In this document: piece after piece, positions 4,491 through 64,000 of the stretch | Layout of the letters: each line of letters starts with the position of its first letter | Numbering within the stretch: the stretch's first letter is position 1 | Origin: Heliocidaris tuberculata | Taxonomy: Eukaryota; Echinodermata; Echinoidea; Camarodonta; Echinometridae | Assembly: GCA_025618425.1 (NCBI GenBank) | Contig: CM046832.1 | Coordinates: forward strand, 66,985,427 to 67,049,426 | DNA length: 64,000 nt | Direction of reading: 5' to 3' | The notes under the pieces: generated by a model | What the model was told of the DNA's origin: nothing | Database searches by the model: none | What the model saw: the letters and a program-made list of their open reading frames with translations, nothing else | Translations under genes and position numbers: made by a program

Positions 4491-5407
4491 AACGTGCTGA
4501 AATCAGCCTCGAAAAATACTCCAATTTTCTTCCCAGTCTATTTTATGGTAGTGTCAAAGAGGCAAATGTATTCTCTGTACTATGAGCTACTGTAATGGAT
4601 GTTACAACACTACATAAGCGTTCTGTAAGTTTTAATTTGTCTTTGAGCGCACCCCTCATAGGGATCGACGACACCCCTCCACCTCCATGCTATTTCAGCG
4701 CGGTCATATCCTTGCAGGATCCTTTGTAGAGATGTGTATATTTTGTATGGAGAACGGACAGTCATCACAGTGGATTTTCATAGCACACGTGGCGTGCGCG
4801 TTAGATAGACCTCCTAGGTCATGTCCTACATGTAGGTCATGACAAGGGCATGTAGCGGGCCATGTTCCAGCATGCAAATCATTGTGATAACATTTCCATT
4901 TTCCTCTTCGAAACCATCATGCTGTATGTATTTTTCTGTCTTTGAAAATCACTTAGGGAATTTTAATGGAATATGCAGCCATGTAAGATATCTCTTAACG
5001 ACTCTTTAGAGTGGTGGAAACATTTTCTTTCCAATTTCGTTTGTGATTGTGCCTCAATTAGCAAGTTGGATTCACAGATGACAGTCCCGTTTGTACTTCA
5101 AACTTTTTTAGTGGGGAAACTGTGCAGTATACCTTAGTACTAGTCTACAAAAATGTATGTGTTTGTGAGCACTATGCTTCGCCAGATTCTCTTCCTCTTT
5201 TTAAAAGAGACAAAAGTAAAGACATCTAGGAATAATCGTCTTCAAAAATTCAATACAATTAAAAGTTTGGCCTTTTTTTTTCTTTGTATGATTTTTTTGG
5301 GGCAAGATTTGATTTTAGATTTCTTATGCTTGTGATTTTTCCCCAATTCCCCCCCCCCCCCGCTTCTTTTTCCCCAAATGAGTTGTCAAGAAAGGGGTGC
5401 TGCCAGT
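4491..5407. other. Gene-free stretch
   Basis: Mixed-composition sequence with a poly-C tract near 5350. No gene or full repeat recognised. Confidence 0.45.
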
Positions 5408-16567: not shown

Positions 16568-17417
16568 CTTTTTTCAATTTTTAAATGACCATAACTACTA
16601 CATGTAGGTCAATTTTGTTGATATTGACATACATGTATTTAGCACATATACTATCTAAATCTGCCATCATTTTCTATGTCCAAACAGCATAAAGTTCAAT
16701 GACGGCTTGATCTTTGCTTTAACCTTGAATTTTACCTTGAGCATCACGAAATATGGAGATTAAATGTGGTCAATTTATATGTCAACATTGTTTCTACATC
16801 ATATCCAAAAATTGGAGGAGTATCATTTTTTATTTTCTTTCCAGCTTCTTTTAAAGTTGGAAAAAAAATGATTTTTCACTGTTTGACATAGTACTAGCTA
16901 TTTATTCAGAACATAGCAACACTCACTGTGTTTCACACCTGTCATTTAAAAAAATGCTTTTGCTGCCCACTGTCATTAATTATTCATGAAGATGTTGCCT
17001 GAATAAGATTTTTGGAATAGCAGATGTCATGCACAATAGGTATTATACTGTTCTGAATAAATTACTGATACTACTGTAGGTTAAACAGTGAAAAATCTGC
17101 TTTTTGCCACATTCAAAAGGAGAGCTTGGAAAGAAAATAAAAAATATTACTCCTCCAATTTTTTTTACATGATATAGAAAAAAAGTTGATGTATGAACTG
17201 ACCAAATTTCATCTAGACCTACATTATGTGACGCTCAAGGTAAAATTCAAGGTTAAAGCAGAAATCAAGAGGTCATTGAACTTTATGTTATTCAGACATA
17301 GAAAATGATGGCAGATTTATATAGTTTATGTACTAAATACATGTATGTCAATATCAACAAAATTTACCAACATGTAGACTATAGTTACAGAGATATGGTC
17401 ATTTGAAAATTGAAATA
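16568..17417. repeat. 850-bp long inverted repeat
   Basis: Left arm about 16568-16912 and right arm about 17041-17417 are diverged inverted copies. Landmarks: GACATACATGTATTTAG vs CTAAATACATGTATGTC, GCCATCATTTTCTATGTC vs GACATAGAAAATGATGGC, ACCTTGAATTTTACCTTGAG vs CTCAAGGTAAAATTCAAGGT. Spacer about 130 bp. Abuts a LINE remnant on the right. Confidence 0.85.
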
Positions 17418-18010
17418 TCTCCCATAGGTTGTGGTCAATGTCAGTCTTTCAGAGAGGCCACCCTGGAGGCACACACACTTATGCGAGGTTATTGGAGAAC
17501 TGCTGGCTCCGGCCAGCAGTTCACCATACAGGACACACTTGGGAAGGTGGTCATCTGACATCCTTGTGACATGCCCCACCCAGCGGAGTTGAGACTGACG
17601 CAGCATGAACATGGTGAAGACACTGGGCATGACGGACTGTTCAATGATCTCTGTATCAGGGACTTGATCCTGCCATTTCACCCTGAGCAACTTGCGGAGG
17701 CAGTTGAGATGGAAGCAGTTGAGCTTCTTTGCGTGCCTCTGGTATACAGTCCAGGCCCGTTGCACAAAACTTGCGTTTGAACGCAACTCAGGAAAATTAA
17801 ATGTAACTTTATTTGCAGCCAATCAGAAGTGCGCATTAAGGACTTGCATTTCATTTTTAGGAGTTGCGATTAAATGCAAGTTTTGTGCAACAGGCCCACA
17901 TCATGAATAGAGTAAAGTTGTGAGGACAATGGCTCTGTAGACACTCAGCTTTGTTGAGAGGCTGATCCCTTTACGTTCATGAAAATAGGCGTCTCTCTTC
18001 CACCTCCCTG
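17418..18010 (-). pseudogene. LINE reverse transcriptase C-terminal remnant
   Basis: Minus-strand translation around 17540-17750 reads AWTVYQRHAKKLNCFHLNCL, then RWVGHVTRMSDDHLPK and VLYGELLAG. This is the common C-terminal block of jockey/RTE-type non-LTR polymerase ORFs. Upstream coding (GISLSTKLSVYRAIVLTTLL) resumes at 17905-18010. The ORF is broken by a MITE and frameshifts, so it is dead. Confidence 0.8.
17754..17897. mobile_element. 144-bp MITE nested in the LINE remnant
   Basis: Ends GGCCCGTTGCACAAAACTTG and its near-complement CAAGTTTTGTGCAACAGGCC. It interrupts the LINE frame between the LLYS and WTVY peptides. Confidence 0.85.
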
Positions 18011-21168: not shown

Positions 21169-21524
21169 TATTCTAGATTTATATATATCGCTCAATAACC
21201 AAAGTCTAACGATATATCTCTTATTACTTTTAACAAATATACTCTGTTATTGCGGATTCATGCAGGCTGTATAGCCCGCGCACATTGTGTGCACATTCTC
21301 CACTCCCTGCCATAGCCGAGCTCCCTGCATGCGAAGCATTCCATGCAGTCATTCGACACTTTACAGACACTCATAAAGCTGACCAAACATGACGTTCACA
21401 TTTTACTGTGTACCCATTCAACACCTGGGTGAACAGAAGCAGTGCGCATAAAATGCCTTGCTAAAGGACATAAGTACAGTCCTATCCAATCCACTCCACA
21501 GAGTTTTTAATACAGTGCCTGCAT

Positions 21525-31003: not shown

Positions 31004-34000
31004 CTGTCAGAGAAAAGACAAAAGAAACAAAAAATGGGAGAGTTATAAAATTTAGTTATCAGACTGTACAGCTTCTAAAGATGCAAACAGTGATATCAAA
31101 TATACAGCAATACAAATAGGGAGGTAGGTAGTTCTGCTGTTCATACCATGTGAAGATAAATAGAAACATCAAATGGGGTGTTACAAAATAAAATTATTAC
31201 ACCTTATAGCTCCTTATATAAGATACAGATATTGATTTCAAATTCCTTGCAATACAAAAAGGGAAGAGGTCGATAGGTCTGTTGTTAATGCCACATGAAG
31301 AAAAATTGTTTCGATCAATTTGTTATCACTGTTTCTCTCCAAATCTTTTTTCATAAAGATATTTTTTTGCTAGGCTTCTTCATTCCTGAGATCTTCTGGA
31401 CAAACTTTCCAAGATTTCTTGTTAGAATGAACAACAATCCCAAGAATTAAAAGAGAATGAAACCCCAAACTTGTATGCACTTTAACAGAAGCAGAAAAAT
31501 CTTGGGAGCATATCACTGAAAGTTTGAGGAAAAACGGATAAAGAATAAAAAAGTTAAAAAGATTTTAGAAACCTAAAATCGCTAAATGAAATTGGCAACA
31601 TACTCATTATGCTAATGAGATGCTATGACATATTTGTGCTCTCTCTTTATAGGTAATAAGAAAATTATAAGTTTTCAGCTTTAAAACAAAGAAAATTGAA
31701 TTAACAACATTGTGCTTGAAATATATTGTGAGGAATAAATTTCTGAACACCACCTATAATACAGAAAGCAAATTAGATATATTCAAGGAAAGAGAATATT
31801 TACCATTATTTGAGGCAATATAAGGCAATTGGAAAGTATAGCACATTAACATCACAGCATCTCATTAGCATAATGAGGACATTGCCAATTTCAGATCTCC
31901 ATTCATTTAGCGATTTTATGATTTCAAATATTCATAACTTTTATTTATTAGTTGTCCATTTTTCCTCAACCTTTCACTGATATGCTTCTTTGATTTTTGT
32001 GCTTCCAGTAATATGCATTTATTTGGGGGGTTACATTTTCCTTCAAGTAACATCTAATACTATACCTATCTATTGATAATGGTTGTTTAACTTTATTCAG
32101 CAATGAATTTAGTACTTCACTCACCATTACTCTTGTTCTTTGACCTGTACAGCTGGATCTTCTTTCCATGGAGTCCAAAGATGACCCCTACATGACTGGT
32201 CAGCTGGTCGACGGTCAACAGGTAGTCACCAGGGGGGTTCTCCAGCAGTACAGTGCCCCGCCCACACCTAGCTCCAAGGGCGGGCTTGGCATCACACAGC
32301 TCTACATTCACAAACTTGCAGAAGGGTGTGGGGCCGTTGGTAGAAGAAGTAGCAGTAGCACCCCTGGAGGAAGTACTTGTTGGTTCTTGGTGACCTTTGG
32401 TAATGATCAGCTCTAGGCTGGGCCCTTTCAGCTGTAGACAGGATAGAAATTGGGCAAATTTAGATGTGAGGATTTAACACACAACCAAAATAGTACTTTG
32501 TATACAAAGACTAAATAAACCACATTATCAGGTACAGTGGAAACTCATTACAAAAAGCTCCTCTATAACAAGATTCCTTATATAACAAGCCAATTTTGGT
32601 GGTCCCAGGTCTTTATGTTCTTTAATTTTTTTTTATCCTGATATAAGGAGTTTCCTGATAAAACAAGGTAATTTTCATGGTCCCAAGCTCCTCGTTACAG
32701 CGAGTTTCCACTGTACTTACATGTACAATAAAAAGCAAACTAATACTCAGTATTCAATACTAATAAGCAAATTGTGACATCATTAAATATAAATGAAATA
32801 TAGAGTAAATATATTACAAAAATAACACTGATCCTAATAGTGGCCTCTGCATTAACAGTCATATTAATTTTGATTGATTCTTCTGTGAAGAAGTGCATTT
32901 TTTCGAAACAACTTTAAGACAAAACTGCATTCCCTGGGTGGTCTTTGCACATAGGTTCAACTTACCAATATTTTAGAACAGAGAAATAGTAAGAAATGGG
33001 GTGATATTAAAGAAGTACATGTTTCTGCTCAATCAAGCAGAGAGAGAGAGAGAGAGAGACAACCTAGGCAGGAAGAACGAGACATTGTCCAATGGTTGGG
33101 GAAGATTTAGTGTTGGAAGGAAGAAAAGTGGGTAAATCTAAGTTCTAGGACACATGCTCACATGACAATAGGCCTGTTTACTAATGTTACGTTAATCAGA
33201 TGCAAATCCCCTGCACGAAGAGACTCTGGCAAGCTCTGCTGCCTCCCATGTGTGTGTGTACGTGTAATGTCTATAAGAAAAGTCAGAATCTCAGGGGTTT
33301 TCTGGTTTATTTCCTTGTTTATCCATCTTTATTTCGAACACAAGTGAGAAGGCAAGAGGAACATTTGATGATATCAGCTGTTTATATACAAAGTGAAATT
33401 TAAAAGTTAAATTGCCAAATTATTCCATAAAGAAAGCAGAATTGGAGACACAGATTTTTGTGTGTGCTGGTGAGGCAGGCCATTATACTGTCGCTAAATA
33501 AATCTCTCTTTTTGGTTCAATTTGAGTTTTCTTGTTGGAATTATGCAGTTTATCTAATAGTTGATATTACTCAGAATATCGCTTTGACTTTTCTATACTT
33601 GTGGTGGATTACAATATAAATAAACAATAAAATGACTGATGTCTCTATAAATCCAGTACTAACTCGAATCACCTATTCACTTTTTACAGCAACACAATGC
33701 TTAGCAGATGGTACTGGATCAGAGTTTACCAGAGTACGCTTGTGGGCATGGACATTAGTAAAAAGACCTATTGCTCTAGAGTCAATTTCCTACACTAACT
33801 TCAACCTTGAACCAAACACTAATCCAAACCCTAAACCTAACCTATAACACAATGCAACCCTCACCCTTCTCCTCTATCTTGAAGAAATAAAACCTAGAGC
33901 AAATATTACTGGAGGAAACGTCAGGTCACCAAAATCTAACCTGAAATGTTTCTCTGATGATTTCCTCTGCTCCAGCAGGTACAGGGAGGAGTCTTAGGGG

Positions 34001-37000
34001 TTGTTTGATGGTGTTGAAGATGTATTCCTCATGGGATGGGATGATCTGTGTCAATCTATCACTAGCTGGTTCCACATTGTAGTAGATAGTGATATCATCT
34101 GTTGGCATGAGGCTTGCCTGTAGCAGAGCAAAGAAGGCAAAAGTTTGATGAGATGAGTGAATGTGTTATCTGAAGTTATATTTTCAAAGGAATCTCAATT
34201 AACAATTTATAATAAGACCATTATTCAATGTTTGTAGTTCAATTTAAAGTCCTTTGTAAAAATGTCTAGTTCTCAATAGTTTACTCCATGTCAAGCTTTT
34301 CCTGTGCATCCATAATTATTGCATACACTCCTGAGAATGATCATATATTACAAATTAAAAACTCTAAATTGGAATGTCTATGCATATAAATAAGAATATC
34401 CTCCATAACTTTACTACTTTTTATTCACACCGTGCCTTGGCCTTTAAGTTTATTTTTAAAGTGTACTAACTGGACCCCAAAATGCACATTTTGTACATAC
34501 CACTAACTTTCAAGTTAGTGAGAATGGAAGAATTTTATAATATCAAAGGACAAGCTTTAGTTTGTCTTTAGAGGTATCCTTCTACTTCTACCTCTTCATT
34601 TTCAAATACTTATATATAAAAGGAATTGTATCCCATATCAAATCTTTCAAATATTCTTGAAAGATAAGTGGAGGCTCTATTCCATACACAAGGGAGTGGA
34701 AGAATTGCTAGGGGGCTTAAAAAAATGATAATGGTCTTGTCTTGTATAGTTTGTCTTCAGATATGTTAAATACTGGTACCTTTTTCCTGAGCTTCTGGAT
34801 ACGATTGATGACCTCTCTAGCCACACCCTCATCTAGCATGGATTGGTCTGGTGTTACATCTAGGAGTACAAGGATCTATAAACAAAAAAACAACATTGAA
34901 AAAGAGAATGACTTGGAAATGACAGAGACAGGAAAGTCCCATTATAATGAAGTCTCTTATAACCCTCTTATAACCAAATGCAGGACAGAGCAAACATCGC
35001 CCAATTATGTTTCTTAATAATCTGTAGCAGCACAATCACCAAATTACAAAATTCATCATTTTTATTCAACCCCTATTTTCTCAAAGTTACATTTAAAGTG
35101 ACTCATCAACATTTCTTAAAAATGATTTTTGAAATGACCCCACAACATAAAACATAAGTTATTTTAGAGCCCTGCTAAGGGGCTGTATACATGATGGCCA
35201 AAATTTCTGCAAAGACTTCTACCTTGGTTGACTCTCTTCAGTAAACAACTACTCACATTAGTGATTTAGAAAATCTCCCCCCACCCTATATTTCCTTTTC
35301 AACTGACCTTGCCATCTGAGTGTGCCTGATACTGTGAGGATCCTGATGCAGACTCCTCCATATTGTAACTCAACCTCAGGTCATCTTTTCCTAGCATGTG
35401 ACCTTCGACCTCTATCTCACCCTTTGCCACGAACCCCTGGAGCTGAGCATCAGTGAGCTTGCGGATCTTCTCCGAGGCCTTCTTGAAATCTCCCTTGAGG
35501 CGCTTGCCAAGGATCATGTGATCTGGTTCAGCATGAAGGGATACATGGTATTTCCCCTTGTCCTGGGATGTTGTGACCTTTCTCACGTTCAGTTCCTGAA
35601 ACACAAATACCAAACCGATAGCAAGAAAACAACACCTATACTTTCAAATTTGAATTCACACTTGGTTTATTACTGTAACCATATAGATGTGGTGTGGTCT
35701 AGTGGATAAATCACCGGACTCCACTACATGAAACATAAAAAAAAACTTGATCATAAAAATAGAGTTAAAAACCCTGCAACATGACTGACATCATTTGGTA
35801 ACATATTATATACATACTGCATGGTCTATCATGCACTATACTGGATTATGTGCAGGACAAATACTGAATTATCCCGAGTGCAATTTTGTTTCACCGAGGC
35901 TGCAGGCCGAGGTGAAATAGACCTGCATGAGGGATAATTTAGTATTTGGATTTCATATAGTCCAGTAATGGTACATAAACAGAACATGCACTAATTATTA
36001 TAGTAAACAGACCCCTAGATCTATAACTGTTATTGTGTACTAATCAAAGTTATAGTGCACGATTGTGCACTGTAACAAAATTTTTGCATGTTGCGTGATG
36101 TGAATCTAACCAATCACAGCGTGTATTATACATACACTATTTACTATAAATCTATATTTGCCATTCTTGACCTAAGTGATGAAAAAGAATATCGGTGGGG
36201 CGAAGAATACCCATTGAATGCAAAAGTGTCACATAAGGGCAATAAGGCTAATAAAGAATGTTTATATAATAAACCTCTCAATAAATTACAAGATATAGGA
36301 TGCAACACAAGTGCATCATACAATTCACTCTTAGTGTTAACACTGCCGTCACCATTGTCACAACTATAACCACTATTACCAATGACATTAACATCATCAC
36401 TCTTCTTTAACACTTGCCATCACCACATCCAAAACCACGACTACCAATGACATCATCATGATCACTACGATAAGAAATCTCACCTCAATGACGTATTTCT
36501 CTAGGGATCTGATATCATCCAAGCATCCCTGATCAGTGTTGATGACGACCACCTCCTTGAGAGGATACTTGGTGGGCATGGTAACCCTGTCTCGGATCAC
36601 CCTCGCAAGCTCAATCACCGTCTGCATGTTAGACACAGCTATCTCAATCTTGCCATCAATCAGGTCTTCCCTGTTTAAGAGTCAAGGAGCAATATCAATT
36701 TGGCAACTGCAATACCCACTGGGAAAATTTGGAAAATGTATGGCACAAAAGACAGTATGAGAAGCAGAGAGTGAGAGAGGAATCAAGGGTATAAAGAGGC
36801 TACTTGGACAAGCTTCTGTCTACTGTCTAATGTATAAGGGCGTGATCACTTTAGGGAATGTTGTCATCAACACTAACAATAAATCATGTTATCAATGCAC
36901 ATGAATCATTTTCAGCATCAATAAACTTGGTAAAAATATAAACCTGGAATTGGTGGGTCATTCTTACAAGGAAAACATATTTCATTCAACCGAACCCCAT

Positions 37001-56559: not shown

Positions 56560-57600
56560 CTAAAATGTCGTTTGTTGGTTCAATGAATCAGCACAGCAAA
56601 AGCCGCCTTGTCTGCGTGCGAAGCCCTGCCTGCCTTTGTTGAGCTCTGCATGGCCTGCCCGGCCCGCACCGTGCCCGCAATGCCCCGATCAAACACCACT
56701 GAAAAACTGAATATTACGTAATCACTCATGAATGATGCATATTCTTCGTCCAATCAGCGCAGATCGAGCGGGTCTATTCTCCCCGAAAAATTTCGGGAAC
56801 GGTCGTTAAAGGGGCAGTCTAATGACAACTCATGGGGAAATGAAATCGTGCGGAATTTGCAAAAGGCTCGTTTACTTGTACACATAGCACGCCCGTTGTG
56901 CGAGGCCGTCGGACTAAGGTCATAAATGATCGGACGGCACGAAGTTGACCGAACTGGAGCTCGGCGAATACTTCGGGTTTAACCAGTCCCGGGCTCTTAG
57001 TCTTGTAACTGGTTGTAACCTCGTTCCCCCAAACAAGTTTAGTGTAATGCTGAAATATTTCCAAATACAAAACACGGTTAACTTCTGGTTGATTAGTCTA
57101 GCCATTGCTTCTGCACTGCCCTGCCGCGACTCGTTGTCGCCACGATTACGTAACTAATCCCAGGCTCTACCAGAGAGCTGGCTCTGTAATTACTTTTCCA
57201 TATGTTTGATTACTTTCCCACCGCGCGAAATTTAAAACACAAGCCAGTCTTATCTCAGAGGTGGTCCAATATGAATCACATGTTTTAGCACGTGCGATGG
57301 AAGTCCTTGTGTCGAAGTGACACGAAGCTCCGAGTATATTTTCCTCTCTCATCGGAAATCGCCCATGCAGGCCTACCAAAGTATCCCTTTAAACTGGCAA
57401 ATGCGACTGGACTGTTTGCGAGGGTCGATTTGGAAGGGCTATATCAGTTTTAGCGTTGGGGGTGTATTATTTTCTCAACGGATCATATCGCGTTCGTGCG
57501 CGAACAGTCCAGGCAGTGGACTACATGCAGGCTGGCCTGGGGCCTCGGGCTTGGAACGTCGCGTTTCTCTCTAGACTCTAAGTCTAACTTCTACCCGTCC
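56560..57600. other. CpG-richer stretch, possible promoter region
   Basis: Clearly richer in C, G and CpG than flanks, with a CCAAT box in CGTCCAATCAGCGC near 56749. No transcript start or exon can be assigned; it could serve IARS1 (minus) or an unseen transcript. Confidence 0.25.
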
Positions 57601-58358
57601 GGTCATGATGTTTAAAAATAATAAAAAACAAACGCACTTTAACAAAAGGTGCACAAGTATGTTATTAATTGAAATAATGTGATCAGAAATTATTCGAATT
57701 GCAAATTTAGATAAAAACAAACAACTTACCGGTACTTAATTTTCAGAATACCAGTATTCTCTGCACATACGTACACACGTGTAACGTAACGGTAGTACAC
57801 AGTTGAAGTAAGAGACCGAATCAGAATAAATGGACCATTATGGTGTGGCTTGGTTGTGCCATTTTACTAAAGTACTTGTAAACACCACCTAAAATATAGC
57901 CTTGGTACTTTTATGTTGCAATCATTCCCATTTACAACCATCGAATTTGTATTACTTTGTAATTTTCAACTGATTTCATCATCTTCTACTGAACATATCT
58001 AGTAACTTCAGCCTGGAGCTTTAAATCTATGGTAGCCTTAATGTGCATACCTACCAATCATCGATGCTCAATATATATCTATCATGCCAATGTACATTTA
58101 TCATGGAAAAAACTGGAAGGCCATTTCTGTTTTAAACGATGTAAAAATACAAATTTAGAACAGAAAAATGTGTCTGTATCTGATGTCAGAGAGTGCATTT
58201 ATCACAATTTACAGTTACAAACCTCTTCCATTACACAATAAAATATAAAATGGAAAGGAGGCACTGCTGACTGAAGTTTAAACACTTCTTTATTCCGACA
58301 CTTACAAGCTCTAAGAAAATCATGTTTGCTATATCATATGCTGTGAGTGTATGTGACT

Positions 58359-58612
58359 TAAGCATGGGTCACATTTGATGGATTACGATAATGATAACAA
58401 GATTTTTCATAATAGGTACACCCAGTTGCTCTACTATTAAAATTTAGACGTGAACATACACACACACACCATAATAGTAGGGTGTACCTTTAATTGAAAA
58501 TCTTGTCGTTTACAGACATGAGCATACTCCAATGTACACACCATATAGTAGGGTGTACAATTGAAAATCTCATTATCTTTATCTTTATCAGTCATATGTG
58601 ACCCAGGCTTTA
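58359..58612. mobile_element. 254-bp palindromic MITE
   Basis: AAGCATGGGTCACATTTGAT at the left faces ATCAGTCATATGTGACCCAG at the right. Internal AATAGTAGGGTGTAC segments are duplicated. Confidence 0.7.
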
Positions 58613-60386
58613 ATGTGGAGTCTTCCCTGGCTTGATGTTCGTTTTGATAAAGGCAGAGAAATATTAGAAATTGACAAGTGACACAGCAGTCAGAGGAAAT
58701 CCAATAAAGGATTAAAAAATAACCATGTTCTCAATTTGTGAACAGTAAAATTCAAAATTACATCCTTGTGCTCTCCATTGTTGAGTACTAGAAATTTCAT
58801 ATACCATAAATATTCATTTTCATTTTCTCTTCAAAGAAAATATTCACATACTTGTGCCTCAGATACTTGTAAATCACTGGACACGTGATTTCATACAACC
58901 CCTCTCAGAAATACATGTAGCTTTATTCTTTTATCAACAAAAAAGGATATCAATTTTAAGACAAAACAAAATATTAGAACTGCGCACTAGGAAAATCACA
59001 AAGTTGCCCATTTCCTTCTTTTCTTTTAAAATTCATAGCATTCTTATCCTCCAAGACTGTCTCCAAACTTTCATTTAGTTTCATTGATCTGTTTTACTCT
59101 GTTTCTGCTTTTATTGAAACCAACTTTATATCAGAGTGGACTTCTCATTTAAATTTTATAAATTATTCTATTTGTAAGCACTTCCTCAAACCCATAAGGA
59201 ATAAGTGTTAAAACTGGCATTTTGCCACTGTTGATATCCCAAATTAACATGTACATGTGCAAAAATAATACTTCAGGACACATCTTGATTGGAATGAAAT
59301 CAAATCTATTACTAGAAATAAGTTACAGAATGAAGATCTCCATTTTAATATACACATGTATGTACAACATATCAATACAATTAGACAATATCATGAACAT
59401 ATAAATTAACCCATGAGTGTGAGAAAGAAAGAATTGGAGAGAGAGAGAGAGAAAGCGGAGCATAATTTATAAGCTGCAAAGACTGATGAAAATAATAATA
59501 CATGTATAAAGATTGGCAATAAGTGTAAACGAAGTTCATGCTCATACAATTTTCTCATTCAATCCATTTTACGTGTACTTTTACTTTAAAAAGTGTGATA
59601 AAAAAAAGAAAAAAAGGATTGTTACACAGAATGTCATACATTTATACCCCCTCACCCCCTAAAAATATCAAAGAGTAAAATTTATGGCAGGGTGAATGAA
59701 TTTTAATATTTAAAAAAATTATAATAATTCAGATGATGTATCACTCTCAAGTGAATAAGTTTAAACATCACTCTATTCATAAGGGCTTCGATGCAGGGTG
59801 GTGTGGAACCAACCATTGAATAAAACATTTCTGTTGGGAAATCTTGAATTTTGTCTGCAAATCAATCATTTCTGATCCTGTCATCACAAACAAAAAGTAA
59901 TAAAATCTGATCATCTTTTCTTTTTCTTGTAAGCTAATTCAGTCTGACATCCCTATTCATAATGGTTTATCAACACCCCTCTGTAAGCATCATAAGGTAG
60001 AAAAATAAAATTCATAAAGAGCAGATAAATAATGAATGAAATCAACATTCAATGACAGAAGTTTTAACATTATACATTAAAAAAAAAAAAATACATACAA
60101 GCAAATTCTTGTCAACTGAAATTCAAAATTTAGGAAATGTAATGAAAAAGAAAAAAGGGGGAGTCTACTGGTAAATAAAATCTTATATGAAGTAAACAAA
60201 AAAATAAAAAAAAAATAAAAAAAAATTATATATATATTGGTATTTCATCCATATCAACAGCCAGGAATGAATTACATGAAATCACAACCTTGAAAAATTG
60301 AAAATAATGATAGAAAAAAATCCCTTTTGTACTCCCTAAATTCATAAATAAACTTCTAGATTTAGATATTAATATATATTCATACA
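58613..60386. other. AT-rich stretch beyond SELENOK 3' end
   Basis: Includes a half-palindrome of the AGGG type near 58950-59155, a GA run near 59437-59452, and otherwise nothing recognised. Confidence 0.4.
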
Positions 60387-60392
60387 TTTAAT
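60387..60392 (-). promoter_or_regulatory. SELENOK: Candidate SELENOK poly(A) signal
   Basis: ATTAAA on the minus strand, 121 nt beyond the SECIS. Variant hexamer in an AT-rich context, so the true cleavage site could be elsewhere. Confidence 0.3.
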
Positions 60393-63300
60393 GTACATTG
60401 AAATATAAATTATATTTCAATATATATTAAGAGTATAATTTAAAACAAAATAGTGATATACAATATTCTCTTCAAAATCAGTTTTGAAGAGAATATTATA
60501 ACATACATGTATGTATCTGTTGTTTTTCATCAGTCAAGTTAGCCTCAAGTTTTTGAGTTTACTAACAAGACGTCATTATCAGATACTTCAACAAATTCAA
60601 TGGGGGACCACTCAGAAATATCAATAAATAAAATTCTTTACCAAACATGTACATATTCTTATTCTAACAATTATCTGAAATTCTTTTCTTTGATTCTCAA
60701 CTCAAATACAAATAAATAACTGCTTAAAAATTAGCTAAAAATATTTAACAACTAAACTGTGAGATTATTATTGCACTTGGCTGCATTTTTGCTTGCTCAT
60801 ATTGAACAATGTACCTATGCAAATCATAATTTTGGTCTTTTGAACCATTGCTGTTATCACTACTCTCATTACAAAGTAAGCCAATGCACTTCCAAGAACA
60901 CACTTGCATTCAGTTTCAAGCTTATTCAGGAACTTTCTATTGTACGTGTATGGCCAGTTTAAACTCAAAATATTTGCAGCACTAATGATACAACGACAAA
61001 AAAAAAAAAAAAAAAATACTACTTGACTGAGTTTTCACCATGATCATCAATTAAGAAATATACATAGCATTGGCACATATCAGTCACCCTTTGCAGCGTA
61101 AGTTTGATCACACAGACACATGTAATTCTTACCTAAAAAGAAATGGGCATAATGCGGAGATTGAACTATTTTTCCTGAGTTTTAGGTACAGCACTATATT
61201 GAGCTAATGGGATAATAACAGCAAACTATAGACTGGTAAGATTGGAAATGACAAAAATTATTCTATGCAAAAAATCCTTTGATGTATAGGAACAAGCCAT
61301 CTGTGACTGGAAGACTCAATGACCATCTGAATGAATTTTGCATTTGTTGATATTTCTGGTGGTGTCCAAGGCCTACTCCTTGCATCTGGCCAAGGAGAAG
61401 GCATTTACCTGTAAGGGAAAAACAAAGGAAGATGAGGAAGGTTATGATGTACTTAAACTCAGAATATGTCATATGCAGGACTTGCAGCACAAGCAGAATA
61501 GTCTTAATTTCCTAAGATAAGAAGCATCCCAGTCTATCATCATGTAGAAAAGAAAGTGTCTTCCATTTGAATTCAGCCTTTCAATTACATTCCTGTCCAG
61601 ATTCAGATTTAACCTTATAAATTTTGTACAATCAAAGATCACAATGGCCCATATATATATATATACATCTTTATTCACATCTTGGTGATCCAGGAATAAA
61701 ATGATAGGTTCCCTTATCATGGCTGCCCACCGGATGTCATTCCATGGAGACAAACAAGGATAGTCAGGCACATAAATGCACAAAACAGGCTCAGTCATAG
61801 TCTCTAGGTACATACAAAACTTAATGACATTGACACTGGGGTGCAAGTGTCAAACACAAGGCTTTGGATTTGTATAAAATGAAAAAAAAATGTTGACAAA
61901 ACAATCATCAAATTTAAACATCCAGTCTGTATCTAGAGCATTGTCTTGACATCTTATGGATAGCCGACTAATTTCATTATTCACTGTTTACTTTGGCATG
62001 AATTCTTTTTAATCAAACAAATCAATTGGCAAAATGGGAGTATTGATGCCTGATGAGTTGCAGCATTACTCACCTTCCTCATCCACCCCCTGCAGCAGGT
62101 GGGGGAGCTGGTCCTGATCCTCTGCCTCCAAATCCTCCCATTCGTCTCCTTGGTGGGGGAGGGGGTCCACCGGGTCTGCAGGTGTGATACCAATAAATAA
62201 GCATTAAAACTTAACACTGACAACTTTGACAACTGCCAATATTTAACAAAGAAAATAAGAAACGCACTTTTAATAAAAGTGTAAAGGCCACCGCACACCT
62301 TACGATCCGACTGGCCTGCGACCAGTCTGTGATTGAGTGAGGGGAGATGAATCGCAGGGCAGTCACATGCCTCGACACCGACTACTGTTGTCTGCGATTT
62401 GCGCATGCGCTCTTCGCTTTTTGTCATACCAATACTGCTGTATGATTGGCTGGAAGTTGGATTGAGCCTACGATCCAGTTATAGAGATTCAACATGTCAA
62501 ATCCTTATGACTGACCTTGCGATTTATATCTGACTGGTTTGCGACTCACATGCTGACAAGAGCTGTGACGTCACATCTTCCCTCACTCAATTGCAGACCG
62601 GTCGTAGACCAGTAAGATCGTAAGGTGTGCGGTGGCCTTAACACATTCTGAATTTTTCAGACAGTTGGGTCATGAATGGTTTTTTTTATAGGGTTGAATC
62701 AAGTTTATTTAATCACATGAACGATTTGATTATTTTTTTACCACTCATGATTAAGTGAGTTTGCTCTACATGATGTCACTTGATCAATTTTGTCTACCAG
62801 TAAATGTTTTGGTCATTTATGTCACATTTATTTCCCCTAATTTTGAGCATTGGAAAGCTTGATGCTTAGTTTTGGTTGTCTTAGACAGGTAACCCTTAAA
62901 GCCTGTAGTAAACTGTTTTGAGCCATGGATACAATTTGATTTCAAATTCTGTGATACAACTAATCATCATTAAGCCTTCTTCAAATTTGGATGTACATAA
63001 ACATAATATACAGTAGATATAGGCTTTCAAGACTCACCCTCTCCTGTTGCCAGTAAGGCCTTGTCTGTAGTCTGAGGAGTATCCGGTGCCTTTATTTGTT
63101 AACTCAGGCTGCAGTTTCAAGGAAAAAATAACAGTTTTAAATTGGAGAAACATAATCAAAGATCTATATGATCTTAAAAAAGAAAGGTTTCATTAATGTT
63201 TGTTTTGTTTTGTTTGATTGATTTTATTTCTGCATTCAATAGCATGATACAAAATATAATATTACAGAAAAAAGTATATAAACATATTGTCAGACATTAA

Positions 63301-63769
63301 CAATTTACTCCTTAAAATACAAAGAAAATATGTATACAATATGGGAAATTAACATTTTGAAATTAACAGGGATTGTGAATGCAGGAGACCGTCATCATGA
63401 GCGAGTTGCTTGATGTCGATGGCGGCCTCATGTAGATAGGCAAAACTAATACAACTGTAAATATGGTACAGATGATCATTTGTAAAATTCTTCCCTATAT
63501 AATGACAACATTCAATAAAAGAATAAAATCAACTGATGATACTTATGAAAGACAAAAAGGAGAGATAAAAGGAAGACAAAGCACATATCTATTTAGAAAG
63601 AAGGAATTTGAAGAAGAATACAAAGCTTGACAGTTGTATTAGACTCCTAGTGAATTTATTTATAATTCACTACAGGTTCTTTATAAATTTGCTGGGTGGG
63701 CCAGAAATATATTTGAAGCAATGTTGGCAAAAAACTGAATAAAACACAACACTTACCGAAAACATTGTT
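60387..63769 (-). CDS. SELENOK: Selenoprotein K, 3' part of gene (partial, UGA = Sec)
   Basis: SELENOK is a small single-pass ER-membrane selenoprotein; from family knowledge it acts in ER-associated degradation and, in vertebrates, in palmitoylation with DHHC6. Three exons are visible: 63757-63769, 63038-63108 and a terminal exon from 62175. Spliced in frame they encode a Gly/Pro/Arg-rich cytosolic tail with PPPPPRRRMGGFGGRG and end PAAGGG-Sec-GR-stop. Vertebrate SELENOK ends GGUGR. The UGA at 62079-62081 is followed by two codons and a true stop at 62070-62072. A SECIS element lies in the 3' UTR. The N-terminal exons with the membrane segment lie beyond position 64000. There is no alternative candidate with this tail plus SECIS. 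Confidence 0.95.
60513..60586 (-). promoter_or_regulatory. SELENOK: SECIS element, type II
   Basis: In the mRNA sense the order is: basal helix GTATCTG paired perfectly with CAGATAC; internal loop; core AATGA opposite TGAT (non-Watson-Crick GA quartet); helix II GTC-TT-GTTAG paired with CTAAC-TT-GAC; unpaired AA 12 nt after ATGA; and an apical mini-hairpin CTCAA-AAAC-TTGAG, which makes it type II. It recruits SBP2 and the Sec-specific elongation factor. Core spans 60529-60576, about 1.5 kb after the stop codon. All family spacing rules are met. Confidence 0.93.
60593..62069 (-). other. SELENOK: SELENOK 3' UTR between stop and SECIS
   Basis: AT-rich sequence with no recognised repeat family apart from an (AT)n tract near 61653-61665. 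It includes a 125-codon open frame (61469-61846) judged fortuitous. Assigned to the 3' UTR because the SECIS must be on the same mRNA; an intron within it cannot be excluded. Confidence 0.6.
62070..62175 (-). CDS. SELENOK: SELENOK terminal coding exon with Sec codon
   Basis: After the acceptor CTGCAG the frame set by the previous exon reads GPGGPPPPPRRRMGGFGG, then GPAPPPAAGGG, then TGA, then Gly-Arg and TGA. The Pro/Gly/Arg-rich tail and the position of Sec three residues from the end are diagnostic of SELENOK. The other open frame through this exon has no family match. Confidence 0.95.
62079..62081 (-). other. SELENOK: In-frame UGA selenocysteine codon
   Basis: TGA between Gly-Gly-Gly and Gly-Arg-stop in the SELENOK frame. 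Recoding is supported by family position and by a SECIS on the same strand. Confidence 0.93.
62285..62638 (+). mobile_element. 354-bp palindromic MITE in SELENOK intron
   Basis: Terminal inverted repeats AGGCCACCGCACACCTTACG and its complement, flanked on both sides by TAA. A 3-bp TAA target duplication suggests PIF/Harbinger; no coding capacity. Strand is arbitrary. Confidence 0.75.
63038..63108 (-). CDS. SELENOK: SELENOK internal exon
   Basis: A 71-nt exon encoding PELTNKGTGYSSDYRQGLTG then NRR, ending phase 2 at GG|GTGAG. It corresponds to the SSDSRYDDGRGPPG region of vertebrate SELENOK. Confidence 0.9.
63110..63755 (-). other. SELENOK: SELENOK intron, AT-rich
   Basis: Intron between the 13-nt exon and the 71-nt exon. 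A low-complexity TTTTGTTTTG-type stretch lies near 63197. No other exon or repeat recognised. Confidence 0.5.
63757..63769 (-). CDS. SELENOK: SELENOK 13-nt microexon
   Basis: Between a strong acceptor (a pyrimidine-rich tract ending TTTCAG) and donor GTAAGT lie only 13 nt. They complete one codon and encode Thr-Met-Phe-Ser, matching the FFKT(L/M) segment after the SELENOK membrane helix. Phase 0 joins the next exon's PEL. Too short for similarity alone; splice sites, phase and position carry the call. Confidence 0.72.
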
Positions 63770-64000
63770 CTGAAACTAAGAGCAAGAAGAGAAGAGATAA
63801 AAATATAAATACTTTAATTCATAAAAGAAATACACATCTACTTTATAAAGGTGAATCATATTTCACAGACTTAACGGTTAACCCTAAAATACAAAAGCAG
63901 CAGAAAACACATTCAGCTTAGTAAATGGATCTTTTACATACATATATTCCACTTGGATTGTCTGATACCCATTTGTAAACATTAAAATAAGGTCAATGAA
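63770..64000 (-). other. SELENOK: SELENOK intron running off the window
   Basis: No sequence resembling the SELENOK membrane helix or N-terminus is present, so the upstream exons must lie beyond 64000. Confidence 0.6.

Follow-up and report, generated by a model that had tools for sequence, protein, structure and literature searches.

The minus strand of the Heliocidaris tuberculata DNA analysed here, a 64-kb stretch called the window below, very probably carries a selenoprotein K (SELENOK) gene in which a UGA close to the end of the reading frame is decoded as selenocysteine (Sec), whichever stop codon then ends translation. The full model, comprising the 3′ half of SELENOK, the Sec UGA, a SECIS-like hairpin and a TAA stop codon assembled by splicing, is likely, if held a little less firmly. 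A preliminary description of this DNA had proposed selenoprotein K with an in-frame Sec UGA near its end, and this proposal is upheld by a match to the Pfam family PF10961, by matches to sea urchin SELENOKs and by a SECIS-like element downstream. The coding features of the model are as follows.

63757..63775, minus strand: SELENOK microexon of 19 nt, coding (x)FRTMFS and expected to follow the membrane-helix exon(s); FRTM occurs in three urchin proteins
63038..63108, minus strand: SELENOK exon of 71 nt, coding PELTNKGTGYSSDYRQGLTGNRR-G(2/3), from the joined frame and a tblastn match
62074..62175, minus strand: SELENOK exon of 102 nt, coding (G)PGGPPPPPRRRMGGFGGRGSGPAPPPAAGGG-U-G-R(2/3), from the joined frame and the donor and acceptor ranks
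62079..62081, minus strand: in-frame TGA, the proposed Sec codon, from the joined frame and the family ending GGUGR

Joined in phase, the three exons (63775–63757, 63108–63038 and 62175–62074) read FRTMFSPELTNKGTGYSSDYRQGLTGNRRGPGGPPPPPRRRMGGFGGRGSGPAPPPAAGGG-UGA-G-R-stop, with GT/AG borders at all of them on the minus strand read over 64000–58500, and each of the remaining two frames meets a stop inside the first dozen codons. The exon sequences and the frame can be read directly in the DNA, and the earlier statement that three named exons join in phase holds, with GT/AG borders and a single open frame. The Gly/Pro/Arg-rich tail, on the minus strand, contains GGT-GGA-TGA-GGA-AGG-TGA, and on the two strands of the 64 kb there is a single stretch of DNA coding for GG-UGA-GR. 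Vertebrate SELENOK, like the family in general, ends in GGUGR, and the Pro/Gly/Arg-rich tail of the joined exons, ending in GG-UGA-GR, matches this.

Splice sites were ranked among the 3678 GT and 3547 AG sites of the minus strand by a simple scan with approximate weights not trained on urchin genes; on this scale the 71-nt exon has a donor of rank 12 of 3678 and an acceptor of rank 80 of 3547, and the 102-nt Sec exon has a mediocre acceptor (rank 307 of 3547) and the donor AAG|GTGAGT at rank 3 of 3678. The microexon donor, TCG|GTAAGT, ranks 30 of 3678, and two in-frame acceptors lie 6 bases apart, CTCTTAG|TTTCAG (rank 25 of 3547) and TTTCAG|AAC (rank 31 of 3547). Use of the inner acceptor gives a 13-nt form (63757–63769), the extent first described. 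The exon and its frame were correctly placed, but the 13-nt form was set aside: it drops Phe-Arg, which all three urchin proteins retain (LFFRTM), and the microexon is thus most likely 19 nt long (63757–63775).

The joined 64 aa peptide, with C typed for Sec, matched one Pfam family in hmmscan, PF10961 (SelK_SelG), at 29.9 bits (E 8.7e-7) against a curated cut-off of 23.3 bits, the alignment spanning profile positions 36–86 of 86; this profile search of the joined exons had been suggested as a check, and its result favours the original identification. Among 17 candidates from a database of 5.8 billion proteins, the same peptide had four matches at E ≤0.01, namely the SELENOKs of Lytechinus variegatus, Strongylocentrotus purpuratus, Diadema setosum and the chiton Liolophura sinensis, the closest being those of the sea urchins (E 3.0e-24, 3.3e-23 and 9.8e-23). 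S. purpuratus SELENOK as the query retrieved 10 proteins from 172 candidates, these four among them; the other six came from a sea cucumber, a brachiopod, a mussel, two fish and a tick. A search for solved structures resembling the 64 aa peptide gave no match at E up to 5. Homology is thus plain, and because the Pfam match lies above its cut-off and sea urchin SELENOKs are matched, the SELENOK-like tail goes beyond chance.

Lytechinus SELENOK, used as a tblastn query, matched 63186–63037 (E 8.4e-11), the alignment extending into the upstream intron. The middle exon is the SELENOK match among the 40 best tblastn lines, from which the microexon and the tail exon are absent. Neither the motif scan nor tblastn located exons coding for the N-terminus and membrane helix within the 64-kb window, as expected if the gene runs on past 64000. 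The scan for N-terminal motifs gave two FFWG strings, at 5292 on the plus strand and 20191 on the minus strand, which were discarded as stray occurrences lacking SELENOK context.

The window holds several other features. Within a SELENOK intron lies a 356-bp segment (62284–62639) with inverted ends, AAGGCCACCGCACACCTTACGATC being exact at both, and with repeat arms of 74 nt that are 86% complementary and extend 8 nt past each end. With an apparent TTA target duplication, noted by eye, it looks like a miniature inverted-repeat transposon, and the TTA would suit the PIF/Harbinger type; with up to 3 mismatches allowed, its end sequence had no second copy in the window. On the same strand, downstream of SELENOK, open frames at 32117–32473 and 35299–35643 match Ubiquitin_IARS1 (PF23567, E 1.3e-18) and DUF5915 (PF19302, E 2.4e-8), respectively. 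DUF5915 occurs in cytoplasmic isoleucyl-tRNA synthetase (IARS1), of which the two frames appear to be parts. A further minus-strand open frame of 145 aa (17385–17822) had no Pfam match at E up to 0.01; its product resembles the final part of a reverse-transcriptase protein from a retroelement.

The end of the last coding exon is most likely at 62074, within the Arg codon, and two further features would complete the protein end.

61409..62073, minus strand: probable last intron of 665 nt, containing a second TGA (62072–62070), from the donor and acceptor ranks
61405..61408, minus strand: last base of the Arg codon (61408) and then the TAA stop (61407–61405), opening the next exon, from the joined-exon translation ...GGG*GR*

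The second TGA overlaps the donor AAG|GTGAGT. The acceptor, TTACAG|GTAAATG, lies at 61408 and has rank 3 of 3547; when 62074 is joined to 61408, the sequence reads GGA-AGG-TAA, by which Gly-Arg-stop is preserved. Because the donor at 62073 and the acceptor at 61408 are both strong, the TAA at the junction is probably the stop; the genomic terminal TGA is probably intronic, and the protein end is unchanged. Of the ending GGG-UGA-Gly-Arg-UGA in the preliminary description, the tail, the first UGA and the Gly-Arg are thus retained, but the last UGA probably gives way to the spliced TAA. It is quite unlikely that the message, still that of a Sec-decoding SELENOK, stays unspliced at 62073, with a continuous 3′ UTR, UGA as the stop and an identical protein. 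Such a message would agree with GGA-AGG-TGA being open on the genomic strand and with AATAAA or ATTAAA strings at 62013, 61675 and beyond, but it leaves aside a donor and an acceptor that both take rank 3, on approximate weights, and whose join recreates a stop directly after Arg.

With the spliced TAA as the stop, the Sec codon lies 5 nt before the last exon junction. It is conceivable, if doubtful, that this position and the assembly of the stop by splicing buffer SELENOK output against selenium level and splicing errors. If so, an mRNA whose UGA was read as stop under short selenium would still escape nonsense-mediated decay, for which a 50-nt rule usually holds, and retention of the last intron would yield the identical protein.

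Decoding of the UGA as Sec is supported by a SECIS-like element downstream of the gene.

60513..60586, minus strand: SECIS-like element of form-2 shape, 74 nt, from scan and fold

The element has the helix GUAUCUG/CAGAUAC, an AUGA core at 60576–60573, an AAA bulge after 12 nt, the mini-helix CUCAA/UUGAG and UGAU at 60532–60529. When the 74 nt are folded, the basal helix has 7 bp, helix 2 is in two parts, three A are bulged and the mini-helix has 5 bp; the energy is −17.6 kcal/mol when the core is held open and −18.6 kcal/mol when free. The AUGA core lies 1505 nt past the Sec UGA on the genome and would lie 840 nt past it in the spliced message. An AUGA core, an unpaired A motif and a suitable helix 2 length are all present, and the position in the 3′ UTR follows from the gene model. 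Passages of PMC3328465 describe the form 2 SECIS with an AUGA core, an unpaired A bulge and a third helix. Like form 2 eukaryotic SECIS elements, 60586–60513 has the AUGA core, three unpaired bulge A, a third mini-helix and a small apical loop; unlike them, it has a two-by-two U mismatch inside helix 2 and lacks an Rfam match.

A first scan of 62080–58001 (4080 nt), which called for an AUGA or GUGA core, an AA or CC motif 9–13 nt further on and UGA, CGA or GGA to close, returned one element, 60586–60513. A strict scan of the same region, with 10–13 nt spacing, a closing UGA and energy limits on both helices, again gave it as the sole match; among 300 dinucleotide shuffles, any match occurred in four and an equally good one in none, a count that is somewhat favourable because the strict limits were chosen after the element was first seen. 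Over the whole window, the strict scan found two matches on the plus strand, both with GUGA cores (−21.6 and −20.3 kcal/mol), and one on the minus strand, the reported element (−22.7 kcal/mol); at the rate of the two other matches, about 0.07 would be expected per 4080 nt, above the shuffle-based chance rate. A looser scan, also over the whole window, yielded 23 cores (11 plus, 12 minus) and is considered too permissive, because a core at 21374 on the minus strand, with 9-nt spacing and a closing GGA, outscored 60586–60513. A 78-nt stretch shifted by a few bases, and so lacking two basal-helix bases, had only a modest folding advantage over shuffles (z −2.23; 3 of 200 shuffles equalled it), and its lower stem was different. 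Rfam, whose covariance match is a detection aid and not a defining SECIS trait, gave no SECIS match when the full window was searched at gathering score, nor at E up to 5 in 57000–62200. Eight other Rfam matches in 57000–62200, the best by E-value being mir-23 (E 0.048), were all below their gathering scores. All in all, 60586–60513 is a good candidate for the SECIS element directing Sec insertion.

About 10 nt past the SECIS-like element, a minus-strand hairpin (60459–60502) has arms AATATTCTCTTCAAAA and TTTTGAAGAGAATATT, fully complementary by eye; its weak microRNA-family matches (MIR5565, E 0.27; mir-2, E 3.1) fall far under cut-off.

The in-frame UGA is very probably read as Sec. The protein might instead end ...AAGGG at a plain UGA stop, the downstream Gly-Arg and hairpin being relics or chance, but this is very improbable. 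Besides the Rfam result, this possibility has on its side that 10 of the 10 relatives retrieved with the S. purpuratus query have protein records ending at the glycine run preceding Sec, a possibly biased sample, as the collection may treat U-bearing records differently. It leaves unexplained why Gly-Arg and then a stop follow the UGA, matching the known family ending, and why a strict SECIS-like element, equalled in none of the shuffles, lies downstream. Furthermore, annotations that wrongly end a vertebrate protein at its Sec codon are documented: PMC12822975 describes Sec taken as stop as the commonest GenBank error, making up 75% of RefSeq misannotations, and reports that RefSeq falters at very short post-Sec extensions, SELENOK included to a lesser extent. 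Misannotation at the Sec UGA had been expected of this gene, and the relatives' records agree with that expectation; because the collection may handle U-bearing entries differently, the shortened records are not taken as proof of misannotation. A decayed pseudogene copy of SELENOK is barely credible: the window shows the 3′ part only, but the gene has introns with GT/AG borders, its frame runs unbroken through the joined exons and a SECIS-like element lies downstream.

Considering these results, we propose the following scenario for the Sec-decoding SELENOK gene. The pre-mRNA would be spliced from a membrane-helix exon beyond the window to the 19-nt microexon, the 71-nt exon and the 102-nt exon, and the last of these probably to a 3′ UTR exon that begins at 61408. 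The ribosome would read the UGA at 62081–62079 as Sec, directed by the SECIS-like hairpin at 60586–60513, and translation would terminate at a TAA codon that splicing creates. The product may reside in the membrane of the endoplasmic reticulum (ER), with a tail rich in proline and a reactive Sec close to the C-terminus, in the role of vertebrate SELENOK. SELENOK resides in the ER membrane and binds DHHC6 by an SH3 contact, and its Sec at position 92 is required for stabilisation of acyl-DHHC6, according to the relevant passages of PMC5789314. We infer expression, splicing, Sec insertion, ER location and a partnership with DHHC6 for the H. tuberculata gene.

The gene is a clean case in which automatic annotation likely loses a C-terminal selenocysteine, to which the activity is attributed. 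An explicit model with the 19-nt microexon, the spliced stop codon and the SECIS coordinates could be used to correct the H. tuberculata entry and as a guide when related urchins are checked. The understanding of selenoproteins is unchanged; both the family and the annotation problem are already known. No paper dedicated to sea urchin SELENOK was found in the literature searched. In the portion of PMC3473315 with its table of invertebrate selenoproteomes, SelK is listed in five of six columns, and the sea urchin is named there for SelU only.

The H. tuberculata gene is an ordinary ortholog in a well known family. The SELENOKs of L. variegatus, S. purpuratus and D. setosum share with it the FRTM.SP.LT..G.GY..DYRQGLT region, and their tail, RRRMGGFGGR-SGPAPPPAAGGG, is the same or nearly so, though none of the three is identical to the H. 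tuberculata peptide over the compared part. Whereas the three urchin records end before the Sec codon, the H. tuberculata reading continues with UGA-G-R. Vertebrate SELENOK, represented by that of Chelmon rostratus, is also assigned to PF10961 (precomputed) and has an SPWRLS helix region and a Pro/Gly/Arg-rich tail, its record being 91 aa long compared with 97–100 aa for the urchin records.
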